In this document: piece after piece, positions 902-6,727 of the stretch
How the letters are laid out: each line of letters opens with the position of its first letter
Position numbering within the stretch: the first letter of the stretch is position 1
Assembly: GCA_022573935.1 (NCBI GenBank)
Contig: JACZTE010000043.1
Span: 1-7,271, forward strand
Direction of reading: 5' to 3'
Length of the DNA stretch: 7,271 bases
Source: Chloroflexota bacterium
GTDB taxonomy: Bacteria > Chloroflexota > Dehalococcoidia > DSTF01 > RBG-16-68-14
The notes under the pieces: model-generated
What the model saw: only the letters and a program-made list of their open reading frames with translations
What the model was told of the DNA's origin: nothing
The model's database searches: none
Made by a program: the position numbers and the translations under genes

Positions 902-1735
902 CTAGCTCACCAGCGGCGTATCGTCGCGGTTCGCCCACTCGGCGAACGAGGCGTCGTAGTTGCGCAGCCGCTGGTAGCCGAGGAGCCGCAGGACGAACAT
1001 GCCGTGCGCCGCACGGACACCGGCCTGTCAGTGGGTGATCACCTCGGCCTCCGGCTTCACGCCCGCGGCGGCCAGCATCGCCTGCAGCTCGTCCGCCGGC
1101 TTGAACAGGTGCCGCTCATCGACGAAGTTCTCCCACTCCAGGTGCACCGCGCCGGGGATGTGGCCCGCCCGCTCGTTGTCGCGATCGTCCTCGCCCGTCC
1201 ACTCCTCGTCGGAGCGCACGTCCAGGATGACGACGTCCGGGTTGTCGACGCAGCCCAGCAGGTAGTCGCAGGTGGCGAGCTGCTCCGGCGCAGGGGCGGG
1301 CGTGAACGTCGCCTCGGGATACTCGACCGCCGCGTTGGTGACCGGGCGGCCCTCGGCGAGCCACTTGTTCCAGCCGCCGTTCAGCACCTTGACGTTCGTG
1401 TGGCCGTAGAGTGCCAGCGCCCACCATAGGCGGGTCGCGTAGCGGCCCTTATAGTCGTCGTAGGCGACGACCAGCGTATCGTCGCCGATGCCCAGCTCGC
1501 CCATGACCCGGGCGAACTTGTCCGGCGGCAGGACGTGCAGCGGGTCGTCGGGGTCCTTCAGGTAGTGCTGCGGCTCCGGCAGCATCGGGTGGCTCAGGTT
1601 CAGCGAGCCGGGGATGTGCGCTCTGCTATAGGCAGCGGGACTGTCGCAGTCGACGACGCGCACGGTGGGGTCGTCCAGGTGCTGCGCCAGCCACTCCGTG
1701 TCGACCAGGAGCTCAGGGTGAGCGTACTCGGCCAT
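902..1735 (-). CDS. Two-domain rhodanese (sulfurtransferase), candidate selenoprotein with Sec at the catalytic Cys position
   Basis: Rhodaneses move sulfane sulfur from thiosulfate or 3-mercaptopyruvate to an acceptor through a persulfide on the catalytic cysteine. Domain 1 (about 10-130) is the usual inactive copy, with H-I-P-G-S (40-44), A-Y-D-D (91-94) at the degenerate active site, and Y-G-H...L-N-G-G-W (110-122). Domain 2 (about 150-277) has L-D-V-R-S-D-E-E-W (171-179) and G-H-I-P-G-A (191-196), then I-T-H followed by an in-frame UGA as codon 236. After the UGA come Q-A-G-V-R-A-A-H, F-V-L-R-L-L-G-Y and N-Y-D-A-S-F-A-E-W, ending at TAG 904-902. The UGA replaces the nucleophilic Cys of the CxxGxR loop. 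Read through, the protein has 277 residues, the normal length for the family; stopped at UGA, it has 235 and no active site. GGAGG at 1746-1742 lies 6 bases before ATG 1735. It is the third gene of the kinase-regulator operon. A disabling mutation or sequencing error (TGC to TGA) is the main alternative. Confidence 0.85.
989..1027 (-). promoter_or_regulatory. Candidate bacterial SECIS element directly after the UGA
   Basis: Counting from the first base after UGA (+1 = 1027), +12 to +17 CCGUGC pairs perfectly with +21 to +26 GCACGG, leaving a GGC loop at +18 to +20. Below a bulged U at +11 the stem can extend with G10-C27, U9-A28 and G8-U29. At the base, CAGG (+1 to +4) can pair with CCUG (+36 to +39). 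Bacterial SECIS elements lie within the coding sequence just after the UGA and carry a G at the start of the apical loop. In E. coli fdhF the upper stem-loop begins 11 bases after the UGA, the same spacing as here. The fold was made by eye, and both the high GC content and the protein-coding constraint could produce it by chance. Confidence 0.5.
1028..1030 (-). other. In-frame UGA at catalytic Cys codon, predicted selenocysteine codon
   Basis: This is codon 236 of the rhodanese. The flanking codons on both sides stay in one frame and encode family-conserved residues, so no frameshift is needed. Normal cysteine codons are TGC or TGT, one base away. Neighbouring genes end with TGA (842-844 and 6725-6727) and use TGG for Trp, so UGA is not globally reassigned. 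Local recoding would need SelB, tRNA-Sec and a SECIS element; the protein machinery cannot be seen in this window. Confidence 0.75.
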
Positions 1736-1753: not shown

Positions 1754-2434
1754 CTACTCGTCCTTGATCAGCCCGATCCGCACCGCGTGGGCCGCGGCCT
1801 CTGAGCGCCGCGACAGGCCGAGCTTGTTGAGGATGCGGATGACGTGATTGCGAGCGGTGTAGGGGCTGACGACGAGCTTCGCGGCGATCTCCTTGTTCGT
1901 GCAGCCCTGCGCGATCAGCACCAGCACCTCTCGCTCGCGCTCCGACAGGACGTCTGCTTGCTGAGCCGACGCCTCGCTCAACGCGGCGAGCCGCTCGATG
2001 ACGTTGCGCGTGACGCTGGGATCCAGCATCGACGCTCCCCGGCCGGCGGCGTGGATCGCCTCCACCAGCTTGCCGTGGCTGACGTTCTTCGTCAGGAAGC
2101 CCGTCGCGCCGGCCATGATCGAGGCGAGCACCGACTCCTGTTCGCTGTACGAAGTGAACATAATGACCTGGGTGTCCGGTAGCTCGCTGCGGATCTGGCG
2201 ACAGGCGTCGATGCCGCTGGCGTCGTCGCCCTCGTCCATGCGGATGTCCATCAGCACCACGTCCGGCCGCAGCGTCCGCGCCTTCTCCACCGCCTCATCA
2301 GCGCTGGCCGCCTCCCCGACGATCTCCAGCCCCTCCTCGTCCTCCAGCACGGCGCGCAGGCCGCTTCGCACGACAGCATGGTCATCCACGATGAGCACGC
2401 GCAGCAGCTTGGCTTCCTCGCTCATACCACTCAT
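1754..2434 (-). CDS. NarL/FixJ-family response regulator
   Basis: A 226-residue DNA-binding regulator and the likely partner of the kinase encoded just before it. The receiver domain (about 11-130) has the acidic pair D17-D18, the phospho-accepting D63 in V-L-M-D-I-R-M, the switch T94 and the conserved K116 in F-L-T-K. The C-terminal LuxR-type helix-turn-helix runs from about 162 to 222, with L-S-E-R-E-R-E-V-L (163-171), the N-K-E-I-A core (180-184) and recognition helix T-A-R-N-H-V (193-198). The stretch after D63 reads R-M-D-E-G-D-D-A-S-G, about three residues longer and more acidic than the usual R-M-P-x-M-D-G. ATG 2434 lies one base after the kinase stop, implying translational coupling. 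An in-frame ATG at 2425, nine bases further in and preceded by AGGA, is an equally possible start. The stop at 1754 lies 18 bases before the rhodanese. Confidence 0.93.
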   Translation of the reverse strand: MSGMSEEAKLLRVLIVDDHAVVRSGLRAVLEDEEGLEIVGEAASADEAVEKARTLRPDVVLMDIRMDEGDDASGIDACRQIRSELPDTQVIMFTSYSEQESVLASIMAGATGFLTKNVSHGKLVEAIHAAGRGASMLDPSVTRNVIERLAALSEASAQQADVLSEREREVLVLIAQGCTNKEIAAKLVVSPYTARNHVIRILNKLGLSRRSEAAAHAVRIGLIKDE

Positions 2435-2435
2435 C

Positions 2436-4220
2436 CTACTCGACGATCGGCACGACCACACGCACCGTCGTGCCGCGTCCCGGGGCGCTCGATATCGACA
2501 CCTCCGCTCCCAGCTCGCTGGTGCGCTGGCGCATGTTGCGTAGCCCGCGGCCGCCCGCGGAGCCGTCCTCGGCTCCTTCCACCGCGAAGCCGCTGCCGTT
2601 ATCGCTGATCTCCAGCGAGACCGATCGCTCGCTGAAGGCCAACCGCACGTCGACGGTAGAGGCGTTGGCGTGGCGGTAGACGTTCGCCAGCGCCTCCTGC
2701 GCGATGCGGTAGAGCGAGCCGCTCACGGCCATGGGCAGCGCTCGCTCTTCTCCTTCCACCTCTAGCTCCACCGTCAGTCCGGAGACGGCGGTGAACTCCC
2801 GTATCTGGCTGCGAATGGTTCCCGTCAGAGTGGCGTCTCCTTCCAGCAGCGGCTTCAGGTCGAAGATGTAGTGGCGTACCTCCAGAAGCGTCTCCTTCGC
2901 CAGGCCCACGAGATGGCCCAAGCGCTGGCTGAGCTTCGCGTCGCCGCTGGCTACCTCCGCCGCCTTCTCTAGATTGAGCGACAGCATATAGATCGACTGG
3001 GCGATGCCGTCGTGGATCTCGCGGGCGATGCGGCCCCGCTCCTCCAGGGCCGCCAGCTCCTCCTTCTGCTGGTCGAGCGCGATCTTCGTCAGGCCTAAGG
3101 AGAGCTGCCGGCTCACGGCCTGCATCAATTGCAGGTCCGTCGCCTCGGGTTCGGACGGCTCGTCCCAGGTAGCGAACGCGAGCGCGCCCCAGAGTCGGTC
3201 CTGCAGGTGCACGGGGACCGCCCAGCCCCCTGCCGATCCATCCGCCGATCGCAACGCGATCAGTCCTTCGGGCTGCGCGAGCGCCTGCCCGTCGGCCGGC
3301 GATAGGCGCTTGCCGGCGGTAGCGTCAGCCTCGTCGCCGAAGCCGGCTTTGCGGATGAGCTCGTCTCCTCCCGACAGTGAGTACACGGTGAGCGAGCTGA
3401 AGCGCTCCATCCCTTCCAGCGTCGTGACGACTTCAGCGATCAGCCGGTCAGGGTCATCGCTGGCAGCGATGGTTTGGGCGATGTTGTAGAGCGCCGAGGT
3501 CTCGCGGAAGGCACGGCGCGCCTGCTCGCGCTGGTCGGCCAGGCTGCGCGTCAGGGAGGAGAGGTACTGCATGACCACGACGACCATCAGCGGTGTGACG
3601 AGGACGCCGGTCAGGTTCCCCCTGTCCTCGCGGAGCCAGGGGCCGTCGGTACCATCGCCAGCGACGAAGAGGGTACCCAGGTAGGCGCCCAGGAAGGCGA
3701 GCATGAGCACGCCGGATCGTCGCCAGCCAAAGAGGAAGGTGGGGACGAGCAGCGACGAGACGGCATAGTGGTAGTATGGGCTGCGCCAGCCGCCGCTGAA
3801 GTAGAGGACGGCGATCACCAGGACCATATCGAGCACGGCCAGGGCGATCAGGTCGTCGCGGGGCCCCCAGCGGCGGCCGATCACTCCCTGGACGCGCGGC
3901 CGGATCAGCGGCACGTAGAGGGTCGCGACCAAGTTCTGGATAAAGGCCAGCCCCAGCAGCAGCGGCTCGTAACGAACGTTGTCGTCGGGCAGGTCACCGA
4001 AGGCGACGATGACCACGGCGATGGCCCAGGCGCCCCAGCGCACGGCGAACAGGAAGACCAGCACGCCCGCGAACCCCTCGCGTTCGGGATCGGCGCCGGA
4101 CTGTGCCGCGCGTCGCGTGTCATGGCTTCCCGATAGCTGACGGCTGATCGCTTCCATCGTGGAGTGCTTAGCGTTGTACCAATCGAGGCGCAGCCGGTCA
4201 ACCACGCTTCCCGCTAACAT
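2436..4220 (-). CDS. Membrane sensor histidine kinase (6 TM, GAF, HisKA_3, HATPase)
   Basis: A 594-residue NarX/DegS-type (HPK7) kinase, numbered from ATG 4220. After a polar N-terminus come about six hydrophobic helices (near 54-74, 86-106, 123-141, 149-166, 170-187 and 203-220). A linker and GAF-like domain follow at about 242-377, then a helix rich in Gln/Glu. The phosphorylated His is H403 in the HisKA_3 box (R-I-A-R-E-I-H-D-G-I-A-Q). The ATPase domain shows the N box around N513 (E-A-L-A-N-V-Y-R-H), D-N-G-S-G-F (540-545) and G-R-G-L-R-N-M-R (557-564). It should autophosphorylate and pass phosphate to the regulator encoded one base downstream. The signal is unknown; no known ligand motif was seen in the GAF or membrane part. 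ATG 4220 is preferred over the longer GTG 4292 because a strong ribosome site lies 7 bases before it and the extra residues look non-conserved. It is the first gene of the operon ending in the rhodanese. Confidence 0.93.
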   Translation of the reverse strand: MLAGSVVDRLRLDWYNAKHSTMEAISRQLSGSHDTRRAAQSGADPEREGFAGVLVFLFAVRWGAWAIAVVIVAFGDLPDDNVRYEPLLLGLAFIQNLVATLYVPLIRPRVQGVIGRRWGPRDDLIALAVLDMVLVIAVLYFSGGWRSPYYHYAVSSLLVPTFLFGWRRSGVLMLAFLGAYLGTLFVAGDGTDGPWLREDRGNLTGVLVTPLMVVVVMQYLSSLTRSLADQREQARRAFRETSALYNIAQTIAASDDPDRLIAEVVTTLEGMERFSSLTVYSLSGGDELIRKAGFGDEADATAGKRLSPADGQALAQPEGLIALRSADGSAGGWAVPVHLQDRLWGALAFATWDEPSEPEATDLQLMQAVSRQLSLGLTKIALDQQKEELAALEERGRIAREIHDGIAQSIYMLSLNLEKAAEVASGDAKLSQRLGHLVGLAKETLLEVRHYIFDLKPLLEGDATLTGTIRSQIREFTAVSGLTVELEVEGEERALPMAVSGSLYRIAQEALANVYRHANASTVDVRLAFSERSVSLEISDNGSGFAVEGAEDGSAGGRGLRNMRQRTSELGAEVSISSAPGRGTTVRVVVPIVE

Positions 4221-4227
4221 GGCGAGA

Positions 4228-4237
4228 CTCCTCCTCC
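4228..4237 (-). promoter_or_regulatory. Ribosome binding site that fixes the kinase start
   Basis: GGAGGAGGAG on the minus strand ends 7 bases before ATG 4220. It supports that start over the in-frame GTG at 4292, which would place a palindrome inside the coding sequence. Confidence 0.7.
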
Positions 4238-4275
4238 ACAGATCTCTATCGTAAGCAGGTTGTAGACTCGCGCCA

Positions 4276-4291
4276 TGGTGCAGATGCACCA
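4276..4291. promoter_or_regulatory. Perfect 7-2-7 palindrome, candidate operator
   Basis: TGGTGCA-GA-TGCACCA is a perfect inverted repeat of 7-base arms with a 2-base centre. It lies about 56 bases upstream of the kinase start, just upstream of a weak minus-strand promoter-like pair (ATGGCG at 4276-4271, TACGAT at 4253-4248, 17-base gap). NarL-family regulators typically bind inverted heptamers spaced by two bases. The geometry fits the regulator of this operon, although the heptamer is not the E. coli NarL consensus. Binding by that regulator is inference. Confidence 0.5.
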
Positions 4292-4322
4292 CTTGCCGAG
4301 TGACAAAAGCACTAGTCGAATT

Positions 4323-4912: not shown

Positions 4913-6727
4913 ATGGGAATCCTAGGCGGCATTGTGGGCTCGCTGTTTCCACTCGTGATCATCGTTGCCATCGTAGCCGCAGCGGTCGCCTGGAGCCGCC
5001 GCGAGGGGCTCGAAGGCGAGCGAGAAGAAGACCGCGGCATCGGCACGGCGAAGCGGCTCTACTTCTACGGCGCCACGTTCGTGTTCATGCTGGTGGCCGG
5101 CGCAGGCATTGTACTCGTAGCCGACTACGTGCTCGACGACGCGTTCGGGCCGGAAGCGTTTGGTAGAGGCGGCAGCGGTTCGCTCGCATTGGGCGTCGTC
5201 CTGGCGTTCGTCTGGACGCCCGTGTGGGCCTGGCACCGGCTGCGGGTGATGGTTTTCGCCGAGAAGGAGCCGGTGGAGCGGCGTTCGATCCTGCGAAAGA
5301 TCTACGTCTACCTGACGCTGGGGGTGACCGCGGCGCTGGTGGCGCAGGCCTCGGTGGAGCTGCTCCGCTGGGTGTTTGGCAGCCAGTCGTTTAACGGCTA
5401 CCCGTTGGCGGCGCTCCTGGTCTGGGGCGGGCTCTGGGCCTTCCACTGGCTGACCGAAGAGGCCGAAGGCCAGCCTACGGACGAGACGCGTACCGTTCGC
5501 CGGCTGTACCTCTACGCCACCTCGGCCTACAGCCTGACGATGCTGGCGACGGGGCTGAGCATCGCGCTCTACCTGGTCTTCCGCGAAGCCTATGACGGGC
5601 TTGTCGATCTGCCGCTGCTCACGCGCGGGGATGACGAGTTCGGAGGCGATACGATGAGGAACGCCCTGGCGGTCGCCTTCGTCGGCGGCGGCCTGTGGGC
5701 GTTCCACTGGCTGTATGCCGCACGAGACGACGCGGGCTCGGACGTCCGGCAGTTCTACTCCTACGTCCTCGCCATCCTCGGCGGCGTCATCACCGTCCTC
5801 GCCGCGACGGCCGTGATCGTATTCGGGGTGCTGCAGTGGCTCATCGGCACGCCGGACGACGGGACGGCGGCGGCCCACTTCCGCTTCCTGCCCGGGGCGC
5901 TTTCGGCGCTCATCGTCGGGCTCGGGCTCTGGGTCTACCACTGGGACATCGTGCGGCAGGAACGGGCGGCGGTGGGAGAGGCGGCAGTAGCCCGACGGGT
6001 CTACGCCTATATCATGGCCGCGCTGGGCCTGGGCGCTCTCGCCGCCGGCATGATCGTGCTGGTACCGACGGTGATCGGGATCGTCGTGACCAGCGCCAGG
6101 GAGGTGGCAGTAGGCGCCGACTGGTGGCGAGACCGCATCGTCACAGTGCTCACGCTCGGCCTCATCGGCGGCCCCGTCTGGGGCTACTACTGGTTCGCCA
6201 TGCAGCGCCGGCTGGCCGGCGGCGACGACGAGCGGACTAGCCTTCCCCGCCGGGTGCTCATATACAGTGTTATTGGCATAGGCGCGCTCGCAATCCTCGG
6301 CAGTGTGAGCCACATCCTGTTCCTCTTCCTCGATGCGATGCTGGAGGACGGCCTGTCGTTAGCGATGCTGCGAGACATGAAGTGGAGCATCGGCATCGCC
6401 TTCACGAGCGGGCTCTTCGTCCCGTACCACTGGCTGATCCTGCAGGAGGACCGCACGGCGACAGGCGAACCCGTCGCGGGGCCGGCCGCGCGACGGAAGT
6501 CGGTGACGGTGCTCGTCGGAGCAGGCGGCGGAGCCTTCGTGAGCCAGATCGAGGCGTCGCTGGGCGGGAAGGTGCGGGTGCTGCGCCGCGCCGATGCGAA
6601 CGTTGGCGTGCCCGAGCTCTCCGCTGAGGAGATCCAGGGCGTGGATCGCCGCATCACCGATGCCGAGGGCAGCCGGGTGTTGCTCATCGTCGACACGGCG
6701 GGAGTGCAGGTCTACTCGTATCGTTGA
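4913..6727 (+). CDS. Polytopic membrane protein with six DUF5671-like repeats and a soluble C-tail
   Basis: A 604-residue integral membrane protein of unknown function. One N-terminal helix (about 6-27) is followed by six repeats of about 70-87 residues. Each begins with an R-R/K-x-Y-x-Y-like box (near 47-52, 128-133, 196-201, 279-284, 361-366, 446-451), continues with one long hydrophobic segment and a polar loop, and ends with a second hydrophobic segment closing in W-x-x-H-W or similar. The closing His is H108, H178, H265, H343 and H506; repeat 5 has Tyr-Tyr-Trp at 425-427 instead. This matches the DUF5671 pattern common in Chloroflexota. The last 75 residues (about 530-604) are soluble, alternating strands and helices, and match no family I recognise. 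AGGAGGT at 4900-4906 is a near-ideal ribosome site 6 bases before ATG 4913. It sits 30 bases after the NTF2-like gene in the same operon. Confidence 0.9.
   Translation: MGILGGIVGSLFPLVIIVAIVAAAVAWSRREGLEGEREEDRGIGTAKRLYFYGATFVFMLVAGAGIVLVADYVLDDAFGPEAFGRGGSGSLALGVVLAFVWTPVWAWHRLRVMVFAEKEPVERRSILRKIYVYLTLGVTAALVAQASVELLRWVFGSQSFNGYPLAALLVWGGLWAFHWLTEEAEGQPTDETRTVRRLYLYATSAYSLTMLATGLSIALYLVFREAYDGLVDLPLLTRGDDEFGGDTMRNALAVAFVGGGLWAFHWLYAARDDAGSDVRQFYSYVLAILGGVITVLAATAVIVFGVLQWLIGTPDDGTAAAHFRFLPGALSALIVGLGLWVYHWDIVRQERAAVGEAAVARRVYAYIMAALGLGALAAGMIVLVPTVIGIVVTSAREVAVGADWWRDRIVTVLTLGLIGGPVWGYYWFAMQRRLAGGDDERTSLPRRVLIYSVIGIGALAILGSVSHILFLFLDAMLEDGLSLAMLRDMKWSIGIAFTSGLFVPYHWLILQEDRTATGEPVAGPAARRKSVTVLVGAGGGAFVSQIEASLGGKVRVLRRADANVGVPELSAEEIQGVDRRITDAEGSRVLLIVDTAGVQVYSYR
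5051..6436 (+). repeat. Six tandem protein-level repeats inside the DUF5671-like gene
   Basis: The repeat boxes start at residues 47, 128, 196, 279, 361 and 446, giving spacings of 81, 68, 83, 82 and 85. The units are clearly related in protein sequence (for example L-W-A-F-H-W-L closes both unit 2 and unit 3) but diverged in DNA, so they are old duplications rather than recent tandem copies. Confidence 0.75.

Follow-up and report, generated by a model that had tools for sequence, protein, structure and literature searches.

The closest described counterparts of the gene reported here are predicted rhodanese selenoproteins of the tandem-domain SseA group (COG2897). A 'Rhodanese-related sulfurtransferase' selenoprotein of COG2897, with three sequences, was predicted in the 2005 Sargasso Sea paper, and the legend of its Figure 3 refers to a SECIS element for this protein (Zhang et al., PMC1088965). 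A first, sequence-only reading of the present locus had stated that rhodanese-like selenoproteins were already predicted in bacteria, and the 2005 paper bears this out. Among later papers, the GOS study of 2008 names a 'Rhodanase-related sulfurtransferase' (cd01449) and a 'Sulfurtransferase COG2897', with 8 plus 1 sequences (PMC2398784), a 2022 review gives MQG53192.1 as an SseA selenoprotein (PMC9312934), and a 2026 review gives MCY3690685.1 under 'Rhodanese-like form 4, UxxG' (PMC13188914). A survey from 2006 counts three selenoproteins in Chloroflexi (PMC1794560). A literature search for selenocysteine (Sec) rhodaneses in SAR202, Dehalococcoidia or Chloroflexi, which left most subscription papers outside its range, gave no title or abstract opening on the subject among those listed.

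We analysed a 7,271-nucleotide stretch of DNA from a Chloroflexota bacterium (the window, by which we mean the whole stretch). The features of its rhodanese gene are as follows.

902-1735, minus strand: tandem-domain rhodanese gene of the thiosulfate/3-mercaptopyruvate sulfurtransferase type (from the ORF, PF00581, an AlphaFold model and a fold search)
1028-1030, minus strand: UGA in frame as codon 236, where relatives have the catalytic Cys; predicted to encode selenocysteine (from alignment and codon counts in 163 genes)
1013-1030, minus strand: loop of the active site, U-Q-A-G-V-R (UxxG motif), which comes after strand 231-235 and leads into helix 240-251 in the AlphaFold model

The frame runs on the minus strand from an ATG at 1735 through 235 codons to the TGA at 1030-1028, and continues for 41 more codons to the TAG at 904-902. 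The read-through product has 277 residues, and the TGA at codon 236 is the single in-frame stop. The coordinates, the frame, the lengths of 235 and 277 residues, the terminal TAG and the I-T-H-UGA-Q-A-G-V-R-A-A-H context are all as the sequence-only reading had given them. PF00581 matches two stretches of the protein (Pfam search), the two-domain arrangement that characterizes the COG2897/form 4 group, and the loop begins with U-Q-A-G, in agreement with the UxxG motif. Two rhodanese domains are a trait of the SseA group. Among NCBIfam models, the protein scores best with PRK11493 (3-mercaptopyruvate sulfurtransferase), at 145 bits and below the cut-off of 250. The AlphaFold model has a mean pLDDT of 97.6, and the fold is a confident prediction. 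Its nearest solved fold is that of 1uar (TM 0.91). In the model, residue 236 is located directly after strand 231-235 and ahead of helix 240-251.

The Thermus rhodanese 1uar has its catalytic Cys at the position aligned with residue 236. In an alignment with 50 full-length homologues, selected among 120 listed database relatives, column 236 is an invariant Cys (with the window residue entered as C), and Gln237, Gly239 and Arg241 are likewise invariant. The replacement of the catalytic Cys by UGA, which had been proposed from the letters alone, is thus confirmed by both alignments, including the suggested comparison of the UGA region with Cys-containing homologues. The motif C-Q-[AGST]-G-x-R is present in 107 of 121 proteins (the listed relatives and the query); the remaining 14 comprise 11 short proteins and three of another form. 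Those 11 relatives (57-95% identity) end at 232-242 residues, just short of the codon 236 position, and three database proteins with 92-95% identity terminate exactly where the window frame meets its UGA. Judging from these protein records, gene callers appear to cut such proteins before the active site, as would be expected of a truncation at the same UGA.

The catalytic codon was read in 163 homologous genes, including that of the window, and is TGA in 75, TGC in 81 and TGT in seven, with no TAA or TAG; at least two of the Cys loci are duplicates (L152 of L003 and L154 of L005). The sequence-only reading had proposed looking for UGA in this column of other genomes, and 74 further genes carry it. 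The first set of 147 loci (59 TGA, 81 TGC and seven TGT) is made up of the window gene, 76 loci out of 77 from one search (the remaining one, L073, ends before the codon), 30 loci from a class draw and 40 further loci. The sole other in-frame stop in this set lies in the Cys locus L032. The UGA loci with a named organism (L001, L002, L006 and L007) are recorded as Chloroflexi or Dehalococcoidia, and L007 is labelled SAR202.

The class draw comprised 393 genomes from the class of the kin genome G001, and at a threshold of 1e-50 a rhodanese match was found in 185 of them. Among the best 150 of these matches, counted by hand, 71 contain one TGA and 79 contain no stop, and TAA or TAG never occurs. 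The TGA is located at the catalytic codon in 71 of 71 UGA matches (16 of them were read later, all TGA). Because a stop in these matches is only ever TGA and all 71 are at the catalytic codon, chance as the origin of the UGA is excluded. The frame downstream is conserved as well. The mean identity between the window and 58 UGA loci is 64% after the UGA and 49% before it, and in comparisons with L129, L140, L141 and L160, 15-17 of the 26-32 nucleotide differences over 39 post-UGA codons are at third positions. Random decay, against which the sequence-only reading had argued from this one gene, is at odds with these counts.

A hairpin follows the UGA.

1002-1016, minus strand: hairpin CCGUGC-GGC-GCACGG, a predicted bacterial SECIS located 12-26 nt past the UGA (from pairing, covariation and a published model)

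The bacterial SECIS model, as given in the accessible part of the 2026 review, has a loop of 3-9 nt, an upper stem of 4-16 bp, a G in the first two loop positions, and a distance of 16-37 nt from the UGA with an MFE of -7.5 or lower (PMC13188914). The window hairpin agrees with all four published constraints, with a loop of 3 nt that begins with G (GG), a stem of 6 bp, a spacing of 17 nt and an MFE of -13.3 kcal/mol. Taken singly, it is not strong evidence. When the window gene is recoded synonymously, six pairs arise in 1.85% of cases, which makes the hairpin only modestly improbable, and its MFE z is -0.72. An Rfam scan of the window gave no match.

The comparison between UGA and Cys genes is more telling. 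In a fixed register, 67 of 75 UGA genes but none of the 88 Cys genes have all six pairs. This register was derived from the first 59 UGA loci (53 with all six pairs; 0/88 Cys loci), and the 16 UGA loci added afterwards constitute a fresh test that strengthens the hairpin evidence: 14 form the six pairs completely, and L206 and L220 have instead a 7-bp stem displaced by three bases. Four of the first 59 (L181, L183, L188 and L191) are displaced in the same way, with full pairing. When the register is left free, 57/59 UGA and 2/88 Cys loci have a stem of at least 6 bp whose loop carries a G at its first or second base, and two of the 59 UGA loci lack a 6-bp stem. Over 53 distinct sequences, 96.9% of the cells pair. 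Both-sided changes occur in three of the six pairs, the outermost of which appears as CG, GC and AU. The covariation score of 0.149 was reached by 0 of 500 shuffles, and slid registers scored at most 0.035. A second measure, counting further pair types, was not unusual (matched by 52 of 500 shuffles). The group MFE z is -1.04 for UGA loci versus -0.20 for Cys loci (p 1e-4, uncorrected for relatedness). One Cys locus, L143, keeps five of the six hairpin pairs after its Cys codon; this is perhaps a relic of a former SECIS, but it may be chance because five pairs occur in 3/88 Cys loci.

A tree was built from 86 of the 147 loci with residue 236 masked. Short and identical rows were dropped, as were those of less than 40% identity other than L017 and L018; 58 of the 59 UGA rows remain. 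The careful version requires seven Sec/Cys changes, at least five of them forced by starred branches (the bootstrap is not fully settled), and a quick version gives six changes, at least four of them forced. In the quick tree, L158 (UGA) and L152 (Cys) are sisters on short branches. These forced changes and the sister pair show that Sec/Cys exchange between relatives is recurrent. The position of the window itself is uncertain. Measured by path, its closest neighbor is a UGA locus (L129) in the quick tree but a Cys locus (L128, narrowly ahead of L129) in the careful tree.

The sequence-only reading had named selA, selB, selC and selD as genes to look for, and we searched for them in kin genomes. 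Contig L073 of the Chloroflexi MAG B27T3L8 (genome G001) is colinear with the window at 95.5% identity over 5,244 bp, and its end cuts the rhodanese ahead of codon 236, so that the UGA is not visible there. G001 contains selB and a selD with its own in-frame TGA, but selA was not found in its contigs and its tRNA-Sec is a partial match at a contig end (positions 23-91; 49.1 bits versus a cut-off of 47); ARAGORN calls no tRNA-Sec in G001. All four genes were found in the UGA kin genomes G002, G003 and G005. In the UGA genome G004, selA, selB and selD were found, and tRNA-Sec gave no match above or below the cut-off.

In a panel of 15 genomes (G001, four genomes of UGA loci and ten of Cys loci), selB exceeds the cut-off in 15/15, selA in 14/15 and tRNA-Sec in 13/15; the misses are selA and tRNA-Sec in G001 and tRNA-Sec in G004. 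The tRNA-Sec cut-off is not fully specific, because 5 of 14 control genomes pass it, and six of the 13 matches were therefore checked with ARAGORN. All six are tRNA-SeC with anticodon TCA, and three of them are in UGA genomes (L096, L101 and L102). ARAGORN also calls tRNA-SeC in the UGA genomes G276, G091 and G207. All 12 genomes searched for selD, 11 UGA genomes plus G001, have the gene. Its best copy contains one in-frame TGA in 11 of the 12 (G001:C232:3702-4637 and ten others), which suggests that selenophosphate synthetase, the selD product, is probably itself a selenoprotein in those genomes. Second, partial copies of tRNA-Sec (approximately bases 25-98) were observed at G091:C77:32073-32141, G276:C233:11157-11229, G276:C134:30-101 and G288:C63:7142-7206; the one in G091 is on the same strand and contig as the full gene, 14 kb away. 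These copies may be attachment-site duplications left by an element that integrated at selC, and the partial match in G001 could be such a duplicate.

In the class draw, selA was found in 67 of the 71 UGA-rhodanese genomes among the matches listed, compared with 51 of 67 genomes without a stop among those matches (Fisher p 0.003) and 186 of 322 of all other genomes (p 2e-10). Among the 67 no-stop genomes, the codon itself was read for the fetched loci, all of which have Cys; the matches of two (G087 and G348) end before codon 236, and dropping both keeps the Fisher p at 0.003. The four UGA genomes without a selA match are G043, G207, G288 and G367; G207 has a full tRNA-Sec, and both G207 and G288 have selD. 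Because many of the genome bins are probably incomplete, absent machinery genes are weak evidence.

Three other readings of the UGA have to be weighed. If it were a real stop, the gene would be a pseudogene, or its product would end after 235 residues and lack the active-site residue. The 11 of 120 listed relatives that end at 232-242 residues could be taken in this sense, but the use of TGA in 75 of 163 genes to the exclusion of TAA and TAG, the higher conservation after the UGA than before it, the covarying hairpin downstream, and the class-wide conservation, which strongly opposes a real stop, make this very improbable. Slimmer still are the prospects of a UGA read as Trp or Cys, by reassignment or by selenium-free read-through. 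The homologous residue is Cys, and beyond this nothing positive favors such decoding. A TGA at 6725-6727 terminates another reading frame of the window, so the genetic code as a whole is not reassigned; moreover, the hairpin accompanies UGA alleles and not Cys alleles, and the kin have selA, selB, selD and a tRNA-Sec with anticodon TCA. An error of sequencing or assembly, with TGC or TGT as the true codon, is scarcely credible, given that the same codon recurs in the assemblies of many other genomes and that three database proteins of 92-95% identity end at this residue. Pseudogene, code reassignment and sequencing error were all rejected.

Selenocysteine is by far the best reading of the UGA because of the class-wide alternation of UGA and Cys, the covarying SECIS and the Sec machinery in kin genomes, and the same three lines support the candidate Sec sulfurtransferase first suggested by the sequence-only reading. 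We consider it highly probable, judging from these sequence comparisons, that the UGA of the window rhodanese is read as Sec with the help of the predicted SECIS at 1016-1002. Sec-tRNA(Sec) would be brought to the UGA by SelB bound to this hairpin, yielding the 277-residue enzyme. If the chemistry familiar from rhodaneses applies, a donor, for example thiosulfate or 3-mercaptopyruvate, would transfer sulfane sulfur to the Sec236 selenolate, an enzyme-bound Se-S intermediate would form in the UQAGVR loop, and the sulfur would then be passed to a thiol or another acceptor.

Two genes of a two-component system lie upstream of the rhodanese.

1754-2425, minus strand: response regulator of the NarL/LuxR type, separated by 18 nt from the start of the rhodanese downstream (from the ORF, Pfam and NCBIfam)
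2436-4292, minus strand: sensor histidine kinase of the HisKA_3 type that precedes the response regulator and has a weak GAF-like match (from the ORF, Pfam and NCBIfam)

The shared strand and the 18-nt distance between the response regulator and the rhodanese downstream of it suggest that the three genes are likely co-transcribed. The two-component operon of the sequence-only reading stands insofar as these genes adjoin the rhodanese in the window and in the same-species-like L073, but it is not a family feature. Among 147 related loci (many with 1-3 kb of flank), only L073 shares these neighbors, which vary elsewhere; a single weak match to a response regulator was seen at L044. The two-component association thus belongs to the window lineage and not to the enzyme family. 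A scan of 44 neighboring ORFs, hand-picked (same strand, near) from 111 around 58 UGA loci, revealed no common operon partner, the commonest families, AhpC-TSA and thioredoxin-like domain, reaching only 5/44 each. It is conceivable, but rather unlikely, that selenium enables a reaction poorly performed by the Cys versions (e.g., fast polysulfide or peroxide handling via Se-S) and that the co-transcribed NarL-type system of this lineage senses the redox or sulfur state, forming a sensor-regulator-selenoenzyme operon.

The plus strand of the window carries three further frames. Positions 4913-6727 encode a protein of 604 residues in which DUF5671 matches five stretches, followed by an additional C-terminal portion. 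The segment 6917-7271 holds the first part of an FAD-dependent oxidoreductase that runs off the end of the window; its best NCBIfam match, L-2-hydroxyglutarate oxidase, is under its cut-off. A 164-codon open frame at 350-844 has no Pfam or NCBIfam match at E 0.001.

The fold and domain order of the window model are shared with the Cys-type tandem rhodaneses 1uar, 3hwi, 3aay, 3hzu, 1e0c and 1urh chain A (TM 0.81-0.91, normalized by the model). Of these, 3hwi, 3aay and 3hzu are M. tuberculosis CysA2/CysA3/SseA, 1e0c is an A. vinelandii sulfurtransferase, 1urh is E. coli SseA and 1uar is a Thermus thermophilus rhodanese. In contrast to these enzymes, the active residue of the window protein is encoded by UGA, and its loop is UQAGVR, whereas that of 1uar is CRIAER.

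Other rhodanese selenoproteins, namely forms 1-3 and 5 in the accessible part of the 2026 review (PMC13188914) and TsoB (NCBIfam NF041203), resemble the window protein in having a rhodanese domain with Sec. Their motifs, as listed there, are UxxS in form 1, UxxG in form 2 (COG0607 group), CxU in form 3 and UxxxxU in form 5. NF041203 gives 38 bits against the query protein (P0001), with a cut-off of 115. The closest likeness is to the COG2897/form 4 family: from what is available of its descriptions, both it and the window protein are SseA-group rhodaneses with predicted Sec in a UxxG motif, widespread Cys homologues and a bacterial SECIS right after the UGA. By description, the window rhodanese fits the form 4, UxxG definition of this family, whose named representatives are AACY01016424, MQG53192.1 and MCY3690685.1. 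In the portions of the 2005 and 2008 papers available to us, the family comprises three and 8 plus 1 sequences and no host class was noticed, whereas here it extends across Dehalococcoidia, with a covarying SECIS and Sec/Cys exchange. An old and thinly sampled prediction thereby gains a firm natural setting, in which the Sec rhodanese is widespread in Dehalococcoidia, including a SAR202-labelled genome (L007), and the repeated exchange of Sec and Cys between relatives offers a direct test of what selenium contributes to sulfur-transfer chemistry. This kind of enzyme had already been predicted; its spread across Dehalococcoidia, the repeated Sec/Cys exchange and the near-invariant SECIS are new.
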